From contig NZ_OY780933.1 of NCBI RefSeq assembly GCF_963676065.1, positions 620,001-684,000 of the forward strand: a stretch of DNA of 64,000 bases, written 5' to 3'. A program made the translations under genes and the position numbers. Source of the stretch: Maridesulfovibrio sp. Its GTDB lineage: Bacteria > Desulfobacterota > Desulfovibrionia > Desulfovibrionales > Desulfovibrionaceae. Below the pieces are notes generated by a model that was not told the DNA's origin, did no database searches, and saw nothing but the letters and a program-made list of their open reading frames with translations. Position 1 is the first letter of the stretch, and every line of letters begins with the position of its first letter. This document shows positions 2,331-7,685 of this stretch, in pieces.

Positions 2331-3611
2331 ATGTCTAAGCTCGTAGCCCCTCACGGTGGTAAAGGTCTTGTATGCTGCCTGCTCGAAGGAGCAGAACTCG
2401 CTGCTGAACAGAAAAAGGCAGAAGGTCTGAAGCAGATCGAAATTTCCGCCCGCGCAAAGGGTGACCTCATCATGATGGGATGTGGTGGTTTCTCTCCCCT
2501 GAACGGCTTCATGGGTAAAGCAGACTGGAAAGGCGTTTGTGAAAAATTCCTGATGGAAGACGGCACTTTCTGGCCTGTTCCGGTTACCCTCGATTCCGAT
2601 GACGAAAGCGTCAAAGTCGGTGACGAGATTGCTCTCGTTAACGATGGTACCGTATACGCTACCATGCAGATCACCGAAAAATACGAAATGTCCGAAGAAG
2701 ACAAGAAATGGGAATGCTACCAGGTCTTCAAAGGTGAAGGCGAAGAATCTGCTGACGATATCTTCTGGAAAACCGCACTTGAAGATCACCCCGGTGTTCA
2801 GATGGTTATGGCTCAGAAGAAGTACAACCTCGCCGGTCCCGTTAAAGTTCTTTCCGAAGGTGAATACCCCGAACAGTACAAAGGCGTTTACCTGCGTCCC
2901 GCAGAAACCCGTGCAATGTTCGACGAAAAAGGCTGGTCCACAGTTTCTGCTCTCCAGCTGCGTAACCCCATGCACCGCTCTCACGAATTCCTGGCAAAAA
3001 TTTCCATCGAAGTTTGTGACGGTTGTCTGATCCACTCCCTGATCGGTAACCTCAAACCGGGCGACATTCCTGCTGACGTTCGTGTTAAAGCTATTGACAC
3101 TCTCGTTGAGCACTACTTTGTTAAAGAAAACGTTATCCAGGCTGGTTACCCCCTCGATATGCGTTACGCTGGTCCTCGCGAAGGCCTTCTCCACGCTACC
3201 TTCCGTCAGAACTACGGTGTTAACCGCATGCTGATCGGTCGTGACCACGCTGGTGTTGGTGACTTCTACGGTCTGTTCGAAGCTCAGGAAATTTTCGACA
3301 AAATTCCTTACGCAACTGAAGCTTGCCCCGAACCAGGCAAAGCACTTCTTTGCGAACCCATGAAAATTGACTGGACTTTCTACTGCTACAAATGTGACGG
3401 CATGGCTTCCCTGAGAACCTGCCCCCACAACAAAGAAGAGCGCGTAATCCTTTCCGGTACCAAACTGCGTAAAGCTCTCTCTGAAGGCGCTGAAATCGTA
3501 GATCACTTCGGTCGTGACGAAGTTCTCGTACAGCTCCGTGAATACTACGAAGGCCTCACTGAAAAAGTTGAAGTCAAAATGCAGGGTGCTGCTTCCGGCG
3601 ACGCCATGTAA
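2331..3611 (+). CDS. sat: Sulfate adenylyltransferase (ATP sulfurylase)
   Basis: Activates sulfate with ATP to APS, the first step of dissimilatory sulfate reduction. The 426-residue protein is the prokaryotic single-chain Sat type. Visible motifs: [11 protein letters not shown] (209-219, nucleotide-binding HxxH), GRDHAGVG (303-310), and a C-terminal zinc-type set C352, C355, C364 and H366 (CYKCDG...TCPHN). The ATG is preceded by AAGGAG. It is monocistronic: an intrinsic terminator follows within 30 bases. It diverges from aprBA, placing the first two sulfate-reduction enzymes on either side of one regulatory region. Codon use is strongly biased, consistent with very high expression. Confidence 0.98.
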
Positions 3612-3640
3612 TTTAAGTAGTACCACTACTTGCTTATTCA

Positions 3641-3680
3641 GGGGGGAGGCGGCTAACGCCTCTCCCCTTTTTTCTTTTTT
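3641..3680 (+). terminator. Intrinsic terminator of sat
   Basis: GC-rich hairpin formed by GGGGAGGCG and CGCCTCTCCCC around a short CTAA loop, followed by a long T-rich tract. Confidence 0.85.
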
Positions 3681-3790: not shown

Positions 3791-5431
3791 ATGCCCGAAT
3801 ATAAAAAATTTGACAGAAACGGTGCCTCCGCACCGCGCAGACAGTCCCTGCTCGACGAAATCAAAGAGCTGGACGCACGACTCCTTTCCCTCGTATCCCG
3901 CAGAAATTACCTCATGGGTAAAGCTGCTTCCAAACGGAAACAAAAAGGTTTGCCTCTTGGCGACCCGGATATGGAAAGACGAATTTTTGAAACATGGACC
4001 TCAGAAGCAGGTAATAAAAAATTTGATATTAAAACTGCCCGTCGCGTATTCGAGCAGTTGAACAACCTAGCATACGCAGCCGTTGCCAAACCGGAAAACC
4101 GCAAGCTTTCCACCTACATTCTTTCTCCTCCCCGCAAACCGGTAAACGTCACTTTTGACGGTCCCGGCTCTCTGCTGCAGTCCAAATTCTGGATTGCCCT
4201 AAGTGCGGTGTCCGGAGCTGAGAGTAGGATGGCACCCCTGTGCGTCAATGACCAGCTGACTGAACTTATCAAGGCTTTCAACCAGGCTGGCGCGCATATC
4301 TCCTGGGACGGTGATGCCGTTGAATCCCGCGCAGGAGACGGCATTGAATTTGAGGAAAAGCTAGTCTTCGCCGGTGACGACGCCATGACTATGTTCCTCA
4401 CTATTGCTTTCGGACTGAAAACTGTCGGCAAATTCAAAATTGCCGGCGGCCCCATCCTTAAACAATATGATTCAAGACCTCTCGCCGAAGTCCTGTCTCC
4501 GCTTGGTGCACGACTGAACACCCTTGATCTTCAGAGTCATGGCCTGCCGGCCAGACTTGAATGCGGCGGACGCATGGCTTCTTCTATTGAAATTTCTAAT
4601 GATATTCCTTCTGAATTTGTTGCCGCCCTCGCACTTGCAGCATGGACATATCCTCAGGGCCTTACAATTAAATTCCCGAAAAACTGGCACGGAATGGAAC
4701 TGCTGCAGGAAGTGGTCTCGGTTCTCAAAAAATGCGCTGTTAAAGTTTCGCTTAGCGATACTGAATGCCGCATCCCCGCAACTGAGAAAATTTCCATCCC
4801 TGAGCAGCCGAAAATTGCGCTGGAGCCCGAACTTTGTGCCGCGCTGTTATCCATCCCCGCTTTCAGCGACGGGAAGGTTACCATCAACGGAAACTGGCCC
4901 AAATCCGCAGTTGCTGACGATGCGCTGCAAGCTCTTAGAACCGGCGGAGTTAATGTTAGTATTTCTGCTGAAAGCATCACCGCGACCAAAGGTGAAGCCG
5001 CAGCTGACGCATCTTTCGATTTCGGAAATGCAAACGCTCTCTTCCCTATCGGACTCGCTTTAGCGCTGAATTCGCGCTCCGAATGCAAACTGAGCAACAT
5101 CGATGATGAAGTGCTCTTTGAACAGGGAATTGAACTGCTCGAACGCCTCGGCATCAGGTATGAACGTGGCGAAGACAGTCTGACTGTCATTCCCGGCAGA
5201 CTCAAGTGGGATGAAGCATGGTCCGCACCGACCCCCTTCTTCGGTATCGCTCTCGGACTTCTGGCATGGATGCGCCCCGGAATATCCATAGACAACCCCG
5301 GCGATATTAATGATCTCTGGCCCCGTTATTGGACTCTCTACAACAATCTGCCTGAAATTGACGGACTCAAAGCCCCTGAGGTTAAGACAAAAGATGAATC
5401 AAAAACCAGAAGAAGAATTAAAATCGATTAG
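3791..5431 (+). CDS. Chorismate-mutase-like/EPSP-synthase-like fusion protein, probably catalytically degenerate
   Basis: 546 residues. Residues 17-105 look like an AroQ-type chorismate mutase helix bundle (LLDEIKELDARLLSLVSRR, then GDPDMERRIF); residues 118-525 resemble the two-lobed EPSP synthase fold. By my hand alignment to the E. coli enzymes, EPSPS active-site residues are mostly lost. The PGSKSxSNR loop reads PGSLLQSKF (125-133), so the catalytic Lys and Arg are gone, and the NAGTAMRP, D313, E341/R344, NDHR and C-terminal Lys regions are not conserved; only SRP near 240 survives. The mutase half keeps an Asp and Glu but lacks the helix-1 Arg, Ser84 and Gln88 equivalents. The frame is intact, so a non-enzymatic or new role is possible. 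No aromatic-pathway genes are nearby. AGGAAA precedes the start. Confidence 0.7.
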   Translation: MPEYKKFDRNGASAPRRQSLLDEIKELDARLLSLVSRRNYLMGKAASKRKQKGLPLGDPDMERRIFETWTSEAGNKKFDIKTARRVFEQLNNLAYAAVAKPENRKLSTYILSPPRKPVNVTFDGPGSLLQSKFWIALSAVSGAESRMAPLCVNDQLTELIKAFNQAGAHISWDGDAVESRAGDGIEFEEKLVFAGDDAMTMFLTIAFGLKTVGKFKIAGGPILKQYDSRPLAEVLSPLGARLNTLDLQSHGLPARLECGGRMASSIEISNDIPSEFVAALALAAWTYPQGLTIKFPKNWHGMELLQEVVSVLKKCAVKVSLSDTECRIPATEKISIPEQPKIALEPELCAALLSIPAFSDGKVTINGNWPKSAVADDALQALRTGGVNVSISAESITATKGEAAADASFDFGNANALFPIGLALALNSRSECKLSNIDDEVLFEQGIELLERLGIRYERGEDSLTVIPGRLKWDEAWSAPTPFFGIALGLLAWMRPGISIDNPGDINDLWPRYWTLYNNLPEIDGLKAPEVKTKDESKTRRRIKID

Positions 5432-5648
5432 TATTCCCGAAATCGAAGTTGAAATTGAAAACTTTAAGAAGGAATTGGATCTTTGCAAGCAGCGGACTAA
5501 AACGCTGATGGCTAGTGAAAAACCTTCTGAAGAAATCTTTTTTGCAAAAGAAATATTTGAATCTCAGCAGGACAAACTGCGTCTGGAAGCAGAGATTGAC
5601 ATACGTCAACGAAAAATCAACCGAATGCGCCTCGGAATGGAAGGATAA
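5394..5648 (+). CDS. Small charged coiled-coil protein, unknown function
   Basis: 84 residues from ATG 5394. I chose this start because the longer frame back to 5310 lies wholly inside the upstream gene, while GAGGT sits about ten bases before 5394. The gene overlaps the end of the EPSPS-like gene by 38 bases in another frame, implying translational coupling. The protein is Glu/Lys-rich and predicted almost fully helical (EIEVEIENFKKELDLCKQ, then a second helix ending RQRKINRMRLGMEG), with no membrane segment or signal. I do not recognise a family. Its tight overlap suggests it functions with the upstream fusion protein. Confidence 0.6.
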   Translation: MNQKPEEELKSISIPEIEVEIENFKKELDLCKQRTKTLMASEKPSEEIFFAKEIFESQQDKLRLEAEIDIRQRKINRMRLGMEG

Positions 5649-5768: not shown

Positions 5769-7685
5769 ATGGGTTTAAACATTACTGAAAAGATCATATC
5801 TGCTCATCTGTTAAGTGGAGAAATGGAGCCGGGCACAGAAGTCGGGCTACGAATTGATCAGACACTTACTCAGGATGCCACCGGTACGATGGCTTATCTG
5901 CAATTTGAAGCCATGGGCATTGACAAGGTGCAGACAGAACTTTCTGTAAGCTATGTCGACCACAACACCTTGCAGATGGGTTTTCGCAACCCTGATGACC
6001 ACCAGTACCTGCGCACCGTCGCAGCCAAACATGGTGTAGTGTTCTCTCCCGCAGGAACCGGAATCTGTCACCAGCTGCATCTGGAGAACTTCGCTAAACC
6101 CGGTAAAACCCTGATCGGTTCCGACAGTCACACCCCCACCGCCGGTGGACTCGGCATGCTTGCCATGGGTGCGGGCGGACTTTCAGTTGCCCTGGCTATG
6201 GCAGGTCAGCCTTACTCAATCCCCATGCCGCAAGTAGTTAAGGTCGAGCTGACCGGAGCACTCACAGGCTGGGCTTCCGCGAAGGACATCATCCTTAAGC
6301 TGTTGCAGATCAAGACAGTTAAAGGCGGCGTAGGTAAAGTCTTTGAATTTGCGGGCGAAGGTGTAAAAACTCTCTCCGTACCTGAACGAGCTGTTATCAC
6401 TAATATGGGTGCGGAACTGGGTGCGACCACTTCCATCTTCCCCAGTGATGACAACACCAAAACTTTCCTCAAGGCCATGGGCCGCGAAGAAGATTGGTCC
6501 GAACTGATTGCCGACGCAGACGCAACATACGCCGAAGTTGTCGAAATCAACCTTTCCGAACTTGAACCCATGGTAGCACAGCCGCATATGCCCGACCGGG
6601 TTGTTACTGTTAAGTCCCTTGCCGGACTGAAGGTCAACCAGTCCGCCATCGGCTCATGCACAAACTCTTCTTACTCCGACCTGAAGACAACAGCGCAGAT
6701 CCTGCAGGGTCAGCAGTTGCCGCAAGGAGTGGACCTGATGATCTCCCCCGGCTCAAAGCAGGTTCTGAAAATGCTTGCTTCCGATGGGCTGATCGCCAAC
6801 TTCCTCGATTCCGGCGCCAGACTGCTGGAATGCACCTGTGGTCCCTGTATCGGAATGGGCGGTTCTCCGACATCAGCAGGAGTCAGCGTACGTACCTTCA
6901 ACCGTAACTTTGAAGGCCGCAGCGGAACTCAGGATGCGCAGGTATACCTCGCAAGTCCGCAGACTGCTGCCAAGCTTGCTCTTGCCGGTGAATTTACCGA
7001 TCCCGCAACATGGGGTACTCCTCCGGCCAAAATCGATTTCCCGGATGAAGTTCCTTCCATCCGCCACCTGTTCATCTTCCCGCCTGAAAACGGTGCTGAA
7101 GTTGAAATCGTGCGCGGACCGAATATTGTTCCCCTTGAAACCTTCTCCGCCCTTCCGGATCAGATTTCCTCGGAAATCCGTCTGAAAGTCGAAGATGACA
7201 TTACCACCGACCACATTCTGCCCGCAGGAGCCCAGATTACTGCTCTACGCTCTAACATCCCGGCCATCAGTGAGTATATCTTCAGCCGCGTTGATGAAGG
7301 ATTTGTCGGTCGCATGAAGGCCGCCGAGAGCGGAATCATTCTTGGCGGAGAAAACTACGGTCAGGGTTCCAGTCGCGAGCATGCAGCCCTCGGCCCCCGT
7401 CATCTAGGGGTTGTAGCAGTTATTACCAAATCTCTTGCTCGTATTCACAGGGCAAATCTTATCAATTTTGGTATTCTACCCCTTGTACTCTCTGAAAAGA
7501 GTGATTACGACAAACTATCTGAAGGTAGTAAATTGACCATCGATACCACCAGCATAACCCCGGGCGGCGAAACCGTGGTCACTGCTGACGGCATCGAAAT
7601 CAAGGTCAAAAACGATCTTTCAACGAAAGAACTGGATATTATTAAAGCCGGTGGACTGCTGAACTACGTCGGCAAACAATTGTAA
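5769..7685 (+). CDS. acn: Aconitate hydratase, short (about 640-residue) bacterial/archaeal form
   Basis: Interconverts citrate and isocitrate through a [4Fe-4S] cluster in the cytoplasm. The 638-residue protein has cluster ligands C297 (SCTNSS), C357 and C360 (CTCGPCIGMGG), the substrate motif GSDSHTPTAGGLG (117-129), and the swivel-domain signature ENYGQGSSREHAALGPRHLG near residue 530. It is shorter than the 890-residue AcnA and belongs to the compact aconitase group common in deltaproteobacteria and archaea. The start is set by GGAGG seven bases upstream. Sulfate reducers use it in a partial citric acid cycle leading to glutamate. Confidence 0.95.
   Translation: MGLNITEKIISAHLLSGEMEPGTEVGLRIDQTLTQDATGTMAYLQFEAMGIDKVQTELSVSYVDHNTLQMGFRNPDDHQYLRTVAAKHGVVFSPAGTGICHQLHLENFAKPGKTLIGSDSHTPTAGGLGMLAMGAGGLSVALAMAGQPYSIPMPQVVKVELTGALTGWASAKDIILKLLQIKTVKGGVGKVFEFAGEGVKTLSVPERAVITNMGAELGATTSIFPSDDNTKTFLKAMGREEDWSELIADADATYAEVVEINLSELEPMVAQPHMPDRVVTVKSLAGLKVNQSAIGSCTNSSYSDLKTTAQILQGQQLPQGVDLMISPGSKQVLKMLASDGLIANFLDSGARLLECTCGPCIGMGGSPTSAGVSVRTFNRNFEGRSGTQDAQVYLASPQTAAKLALAGEFTDPATWGTPPAKIDFPDEVPSIRHLFIFPPENGAEVEIVRGPNIVPLETFSALPDQISSEIRLKVEDDITTDHILPAGAQITALRSNIPAISEYIFSRVDEGFVGRMKAAESGIILGGENYGQGSSREHAALGPRHLGVVAVITKSLARIHRANLINFGILPLVLSEKSDYDKLSEGSKLTIDTTSITPGGETVVTADGIEIKVKNDLSTKELDIIKAGGLLNYVGKQL

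Follow-up and report, generated by a model that had tools for sequence, protein, structure and literature searches.

In the window, by which we mean the whole 64,000-nucleotide stretch of DNA that was analysed, an uninterrupted open reading frame of 546 codons encodes a protein, here called T, in which a chorismate-mutase-like half is fused to an EPSP synthase (EPSPS) fold. The gene, its parts and its neighbours are as follows.

3791..5431, plus strand: T, a pseudo-EPSPS fusion protein of 546 amino acids, frame intact, with Pfam CM_2 and EPSP_synthase matches
3854..4060, plus strand: chorismate-mutase-like (AroQ, CM_2) half of T, residues 22-90
4106..5362, plus strand: EPSP-synthase fold without an active site, residues 106-524 of T
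5408..5425, plus strand: conserved basic C-terminal tail of T, RRRIKI, residues 540-545
5394..5648, plus strand: c3, a small gene of 84 amino acids that shares 38 nt with the 3' end of T
3640..3678, plus strand: terminator-like stem of 12 pairs with a T tract, between sat and T
2331..3611, plus strand: sat, a neighbour outside the finding
5769..7685, plus strand: aconitase, a neighbour outside the finding

The original prediction had read the locus as an intact frame with two recognisable folds, placed between sat and aconitase and without flanking aromatic genes, and each of these points is borne out. T matches Pfam CM_2 at 38 bits (gathering cut-off 27) and Pfam EPSP_synthase (PF00275) at 31.8-32.6 bits (cut-off 22.8), the latter match spanning residues 125-514. 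At an E-value of 0.01, CM_2 is matched by 34 of 54 members of the T family and EPSP_synthase by 31 of 54. The NCBIfam equivalog for functional AroA, TIGR01356, gives 68.7 bits, below its cut-off of 287.25, and the best NCBIfam mutase model, TIGR01791, gives 33.6 bits, below its cut-off of 66.95. No aromatic genes were recognised by eye among the open reading frames of the first 14 kb of the window.

An AlphaFold model of T, built from 54 sequences, has a mean pLDDT of 91.5. By Foldseek and VIA-align, its residues 105-523 superpose on EPSP synthases, the best PDB match being the EPSPS structure 2bjb (Z 37.9 over 403 residues, rmsd 2.9, 20% identity), and MurA structures score up to 30.4 where EPSPS structures reach 37.9. 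As in AroA, the full two-domain fold is predicted to be present, and T and the AroA proteins of the order have in common the structural residues P125, G219, P253, P419, G454 and P511. In the mutase half of this model, a predicted monomer, helices span residues 20-51, 59-75 and 80-99, the three-helix pattern of AroQ chorismate mutases (PF01817). Because this half is nearly absent from the VIA-align rows, its fold is assigned from the Pfam match and the predicted helices.

EPSP synthase, the target of glyphosate, is among the best studied of enzymes. We scored 20 positions, which we take to make up the S3P and PEP site of E. coli AroA, in an alignment of 90 T copies from 89 genomes with E. coli AroA and the AroA of the window's own genome. 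G084 contributes two of the copies, G093 is left out, the copies at L069 and L111 almost coincide in the tree, and alignment A1 holds 54 of the 90. None of the 20 residues is kept in 37 copies, one is kept in 37, two in 14 and three in 2. Judged from their residues, the alignments establish that the EPSPS active site has been lost, and its positions released from constraint, in all 90 aligned copies. No copy has retained K22, R27, R124, Y200 or H385 (E. coli AroA numbering), and R344, R386 and K411 are missing from 87-89 of the 90; the likeliest to be retained are S169 (17/90), D313 and E341 (13/90 each). In the T of the window, the loop PGSLLQSKF replaces PGSKSxSNR, as the original prediction had stated, and the substitutions include K22 to L128, S23 to L129, R27 to F133, N94 to D196, G96 to A198, T97 to M199, R124 to Y226, Q171 to E275, D313 to A416, R344 to L442, H385 to P482, R386 to F483 and K411 to D508. 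The further claim that NAGTAMRP, D313, E341/R344, NDHR386 and K411 are not conserved holds for this copy.

The same loss extends to the orthologues, each of the 90 keeping at most 3 of the 20 residues, and neither MAFFT nor hhalign places catalytic Lys, Arg, Asp or Glu where an EPSPS would be expected to have them; such a placement is what the original prediction had named as its refutation. Misalignment hiding an active site is rejected, as the MAFFT alignment and a local profile-profile alignment by hhalign (probability 99.8%) differ in register only at N336, which MAFFT leaves in a gap and hhalign places on D439, and at K340/E341, which MAFFT places on I437/D438 and hhalign treats as a deleted loop. 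When the same residue is sought up to three columns away, it is general only for a G three columns before G96 (85/90); S occurs near S23 in 42 of 90 copies, R beside R27 in 40, R near R124 in 36 and T beside T97 in 30, and every other active-site residue is found in 17 of 90 or fewer (K22 in at most 2, D313 in 13, R344 in 9, and R386 and K411 in 3). In true AroA proteins the site is intact: the paralogue in the window's own genome keeps 18 of 20 residues, AroA of other orders (n=15) keep 18-19, and across 31 AroA of the same order, namely the 30 best-scoring loci and the window genome's own, 18 of the 20 positions have the expected residue in 30 or 31 proteins. N94 and N336 are unlike E. coli in 30 and 31 of these 31 proteins, respectively.

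A pocket re-used for a new substrate should be no less conserved than the remainder of its domain. In T, the mean entropy in the hhalign alignment is 2.82 bits at 18 old active-site positions and 2.36 bits at 395 other positions of the EPSPS domain, a modest difference (one-sided p 0.029), while in the AroA of the order it is 0.10 at the 20 active-site positions and 1.36 elsewhere (p 5.5e-10). The greater variability of the old pocket in T thus suggests that it was abandoned, not re-tuned. The original prediction had proposed a non-catalytic or a re-purposed EPSPS fold; the residues speak for the non-catalytic part of that proposal and the variability of the old pocket against re-purposing in place.

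The mutase half has fared differently. Its active site is presumably formed by R11, R28, K39, D48, R51, E52, S84 and Q88 (EcCM numbering), among which R11 and R51 bind carboxylates and Q88 is the ligand of the ether oxygen. In the T of the window, R28, D48 and E52 correspond to R38, D58 and E62, a further likeness to AroQ mutases, and K39 corresponds to the basic residue R49. R38 and E62 are invariant (90/90), D48 is D in 70 of 90 copies, and the K39 position is R in 68 and K in 13 and hence basic in 81 of 90. T differs from AroQ mutases in that R11, R51, S84 and Q88 are not conserved: R11 is R in 7 of 90 copies, S84 is S in 10 and Q88 is Q in 3, and at the R51 position R is not among the six commonest residues in the 90 copies. 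It also differs in scoring below the TIGR01791 cut-off and in being fused to an EPSPS fold. The original prediction was therefore right that several key residues are gone from this half, namely these four, and about half of the set (R28, D48, E52 and a basic residue at 39) is kept. The retained residues make a ligand site or weak activity possible.

T has acquired a conservation pattern of its own. R241, P253 and E257 are invariant in all 90 copies, and D154, K161, N164, K224, R255, P480 and N502, most of which are other residues in AroA, are kept by 73-86 of 90. The T-specific residues R241, R255, E257, D154, K161 and N164 all lie in the first half of the EPSPS domain. A C-terminal motif of the RRRI type is found within the last 45 residues of 87 of 90 copies, where shuffled tails give 15.7 on average, and R542 of this tail is R in 85 copies and K in 5. 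An origin of the tail as a by-product of a Shine-Dalgarno sequence or of the c3 frame is not favoured, since its arginine codons vary among copies and the motif occurs in 9 of the 11 copies without an adjacent c3. T is under strong purifying selection, with dN/dS of 0.035-0.138 in 14 pairs within the genus (dS is above 1 in 9 of these). A decaying pseudogene is rejected on the same values and on the lack of a stop within any listed match. The protein nevertheless diverges faster than aconitase, with a median identity to the window copy of 30% versus 68% across the 51 loci that have both.

T is widespread in the order, its relatives having been sampled mostly from the window's genus and family. 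A protein search finds it in 90 of 98 genomes, the window's own included, across all six sampled families and 50 of 57 genera. Three of the eight genomes without T are only 64, 67 and 84% complete. When these eight and G371 were searched with a profile, five gave matches, four of which are true AroA by BLAST to the AroA of the window genome; the fifth, in G045, is weak. T is not indispensable, since well-assembled genomes of five genera (G021, G024, G040, G046 and G056/G371) lack it. In a profile search of 297 genomes spread over the phylum, nine members of the order score 510 to 660 bits with T, and the other matches listed score 173 or less. Nearly all of these other matches cover only the EPSPS half, and none begins before profile position 78. 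The best 15 of them, from outside the order, lie in frames of 419-534 codons with 18 or 19 of the 20 AroA active-site residues and are ordinary AroA. Titled contigs, scanned with patterns derived from seven sequences, yield 59 loci with T relatives, including ones from Nitratidesulfovibrio, Humidesulfovibrio, Desulfocurvus, Desulfonatronum and Desulfohalobiaceae. Beyond the phylum, the searches covered these titled contigs and a plasmid collection, and the latter returned one weak match of 21% identity.

T coexists with a true AroA. The assembly that holds the window is a single contig of 4.23 Mb, 99.98% complete, with three PF00275 genes including T. One of the others, in a 424-codon frame (359.1 bits, G000:C1:3282839-3284035), is probably murA. 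The third is a second, complete aroA in a 455-codon frame (318.9 bits), outside the T locus and flanked by genes that we name by eye as chorismate mutase/prephenate dehydratase and prephenate dehydrogenase. In D. hydrothermalis, the available text of PMC4162548 describes the same pheA-aroA-tyrA order within a pressure-regulated cluster of aromatic genes. From its residues, the AroA paralogue of the window genome would be active. T differs from AroA in keeping 0-3 of the 20 active-site residues, in the deletion of the K340/E341 loop in the profile alignment, and in being fused to a mutase-like half, without an aromatic cluster in the window and beside a true AroA. The idea that T replaces a missing aroA is rejected, because 84 of the 98 genomes sampled from the order have an AroA above the cut-off; AroA and T occur together in 80 of 98.

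Two further genomes of the order show unusual AroA inventories. In G026 (L089), which is 98% complete, T is present and no AroA scores above the cut-off; its one 85-bit match is MurA-like by score, and this organism may be an aromatic auxotroph that keeps T. At L119 (G024:C9), a true AroA lies in a 695-codon open frame that extends about 256 codons ahead of the AroA match, possibly as an N-terminal fusion or as a mere open frame.

The genes around T were counted in 79 long loci (L035-L113), and since some loci end at contig ends, the counts are lower bounds. Sat is encoded in 38 and AprB in 43, aconitase follows downstream in 51, and 49 have a PpiD-like protein; AprA-sized and, by eye, Qmo-like genes adjoin AprB, so that T is often near sat, aprBA and Qmo-like genes. 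In 7 of the 79 loci (for example L078, L089 and L096), a gene near T of about 400 codons looks by eye like an aminotransferase gene. In the window, T is probably a transcription unit separate from sat, given the terminator-like stem at 3640-3678 directly after sat; the stretch holds four terminator-like sites versus 3.0 expected from shuffles, and this one has the longest stem. The small gene c3, of about 85 codons, adjoins T in 79 of 90 loci by a script with a composition filter (56 of 79 loci by plain tblastn with the c3 of the window), and its start codon lies inside T in 76, with a median overlap of 41 nt. It is predicted to form a two-helix hairpin (model pLDDT 89.2) and has no convincing match in Pfam or NCBIfam. 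All six T-less genomes tested retain c3, two of them (L218 and L220) with the order sat, c3, aconitase and PpiD-like gene intact, and searches of 11 genomes in which c3 does not adjoin T turned up no c3 in any of them. c3 is a conserved neighbour of T that is lost independently of it and a candidate partner only.

A mutant phenotype may already exist for one member of the family. In D. alaskensis G20, Dde_1109 is aprB and Dde_1110 is aprA according to the available text of PMC10133479; that of PMC11434458 names Dde_1109 aprA instead, which leaves the gene position unaffected. Dde_1106 is three locus numbers from aprB, about the place of T in related genomes (in L051 and L078, one called open reading frame separates AprB from T), and by this locus numbering is probably the T orthologue. 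In the part of PMC5193443 that includes its Table 1, Dde_1106 is listed as '5-enolpyruvylshikimate-3-phosphate synthase' under amino acid metabolism, and its transposon mutant has fitness values of -1.25, -1.33, -1.64, -1.04, -1.13, -2.41 and -0.75 in seven conditions, the worst after ten days' stationary phase at 500 uM phosphate. If Dde_1106 is T, cells would benefit from the gene without strictly requiring it; a polar effect on the overlapping c3 could also account for the fitness defect.

T has lost its EPSPS active site across the order and is yet maintained by selection, so it probably has a different, non-enzymatic job. Its fold is kept under selection without EPSPS catalytic residues and with an AroA paralogue present, which on the evidence of the sequences would make it a pseudoenzyme. 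The account that we favour, and consider somewhat probable, is that T is an order-wide pseudoenzyme with a candidate role as a binding or scaffold protein. Its ancestor would have been a fused chorismate mutase-EPSP synthase whose EPSPS chemistry disappeared ahead of the divergence of the order's six sampled families, and which was then retained for binding or scaffolding. The AroQ-type three-helix half may dimerise T, by analogy with AroQ mutases, the rigid two-domain EPSPS body could display the newly conserved residues as a surface, and the RRRI tail may dock a nucleic acid or another protein. T would act in general upkeep rather than in sulfate activation or aromatic synthesis.

Other explanations centre on catalysis or ligand binding. 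That T remains a working chorismate mutase-EPSP synthase, with both activities and an unusual active site, seems hardly credible: both Pfam models are matched over their cut-offs and the predicted fold is intact, but the invariable loss of K22, R27, R124, Y200 and H385, the near-invariable loss of R344, R386 and K411, the score far below the aroA cut-off and the presence of a normal AroA all argue otherwise, and the residues that might substitute from within three columns are mostly rare, those beside R27 and near R124 being the more frequent. T might instead be a re-purposed enzyme or an allosteric sensor, in which the half-kept mutase site or a new site around R241, E257 and R255 serves another reaction or a shikimate-pathway metabolite. 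The invariance of R38 and E62, the basic residue at position 39 and the T-specific polar residues of the EPSPS half are consistent with this, and DAHP synthase fusions provide a known example of a CM domain with a regulatory role. The equivalents of R11, R51 and Q88 are not conserved, however, the old EPSPS positions show more variation than other parts of the domain, and the conserved CM residues could be structural, so that we regard this explanation as unlikely. A tentative proposal, to which we give a slightly better though still poor chance, is that T is a sensor or adaptor made of two disarmed shikimate enzymes, in which the half-kept mutase site would bind a pathway metabolite or some other anion and the new residues and basic tail would relay this to a target. 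If true, T would be a regulator made from dead copies of aromatic-pathway enzymes, in host bacteria that begin the pathway by the aldolase/dehydroquinate-synthase route; to our knowledge, bacteria with this start are missing the usual DAHP-synthase control point.

The gene neighbourhood offers two further explanations. The frequent overlap of c3 with T would suit an obligate two-protein complex formed through coupled translation, an idea made improbable by the occurrence of each gene without the other and by the two T-less genomes in which c3 keeps its place between sat and aconitase. The proximity of sat, AprB and the genes adjoining AprB raises the prospect that T assists the enzymes of sulfate activation and reduction (sat, aprBA, qmoABC) as an accessory or assembly factor. 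We consider this more improbable again, as the stem in the window parts T from sat and T is present in 17 of 17 genomes of the order without AprA above the cut-off, compared with 73 of 81 with AprA. Three of the 17 hold AprA in pieces, and among the remaining 14, completeness reaches 95% or more in 9; G022, a 1.5-Mb genome that is 100% complete, is one of the 17 and has T. T is, accordingly, not simply a sulfate-reduction factor.

Pseudoenzymes are known as a kind, and a conserved, non-catalytic family with the EPSPS fold was not found in the open-licence PMC papers searched, within which T seems new. Fusion of EPSP synthase to another aromatic-pathway enzyme does occur naturally, as in the prephenate dehydrogenase/EPSP synthase PRK14806 (NF011381); the partner enzyme there is a different one, and one distant T copy scores 19.9 bits against that model, whose cut-off is 902.

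The name that T receives from its matches is probably misleading: metabolic models and mutant screens that trust the name would place T in aromatic amino acid synthesis, and one member, Dde_1106, has probably been published under the name EPSP synthase (PMC5193443, as far as its mutant table goes). For an order of mostly sulfate reducers, in which 90 of 98 genomes carry the family, T offers a testable case of a two-enzyme fusion outliving the loss of its EPSPS catalysis.
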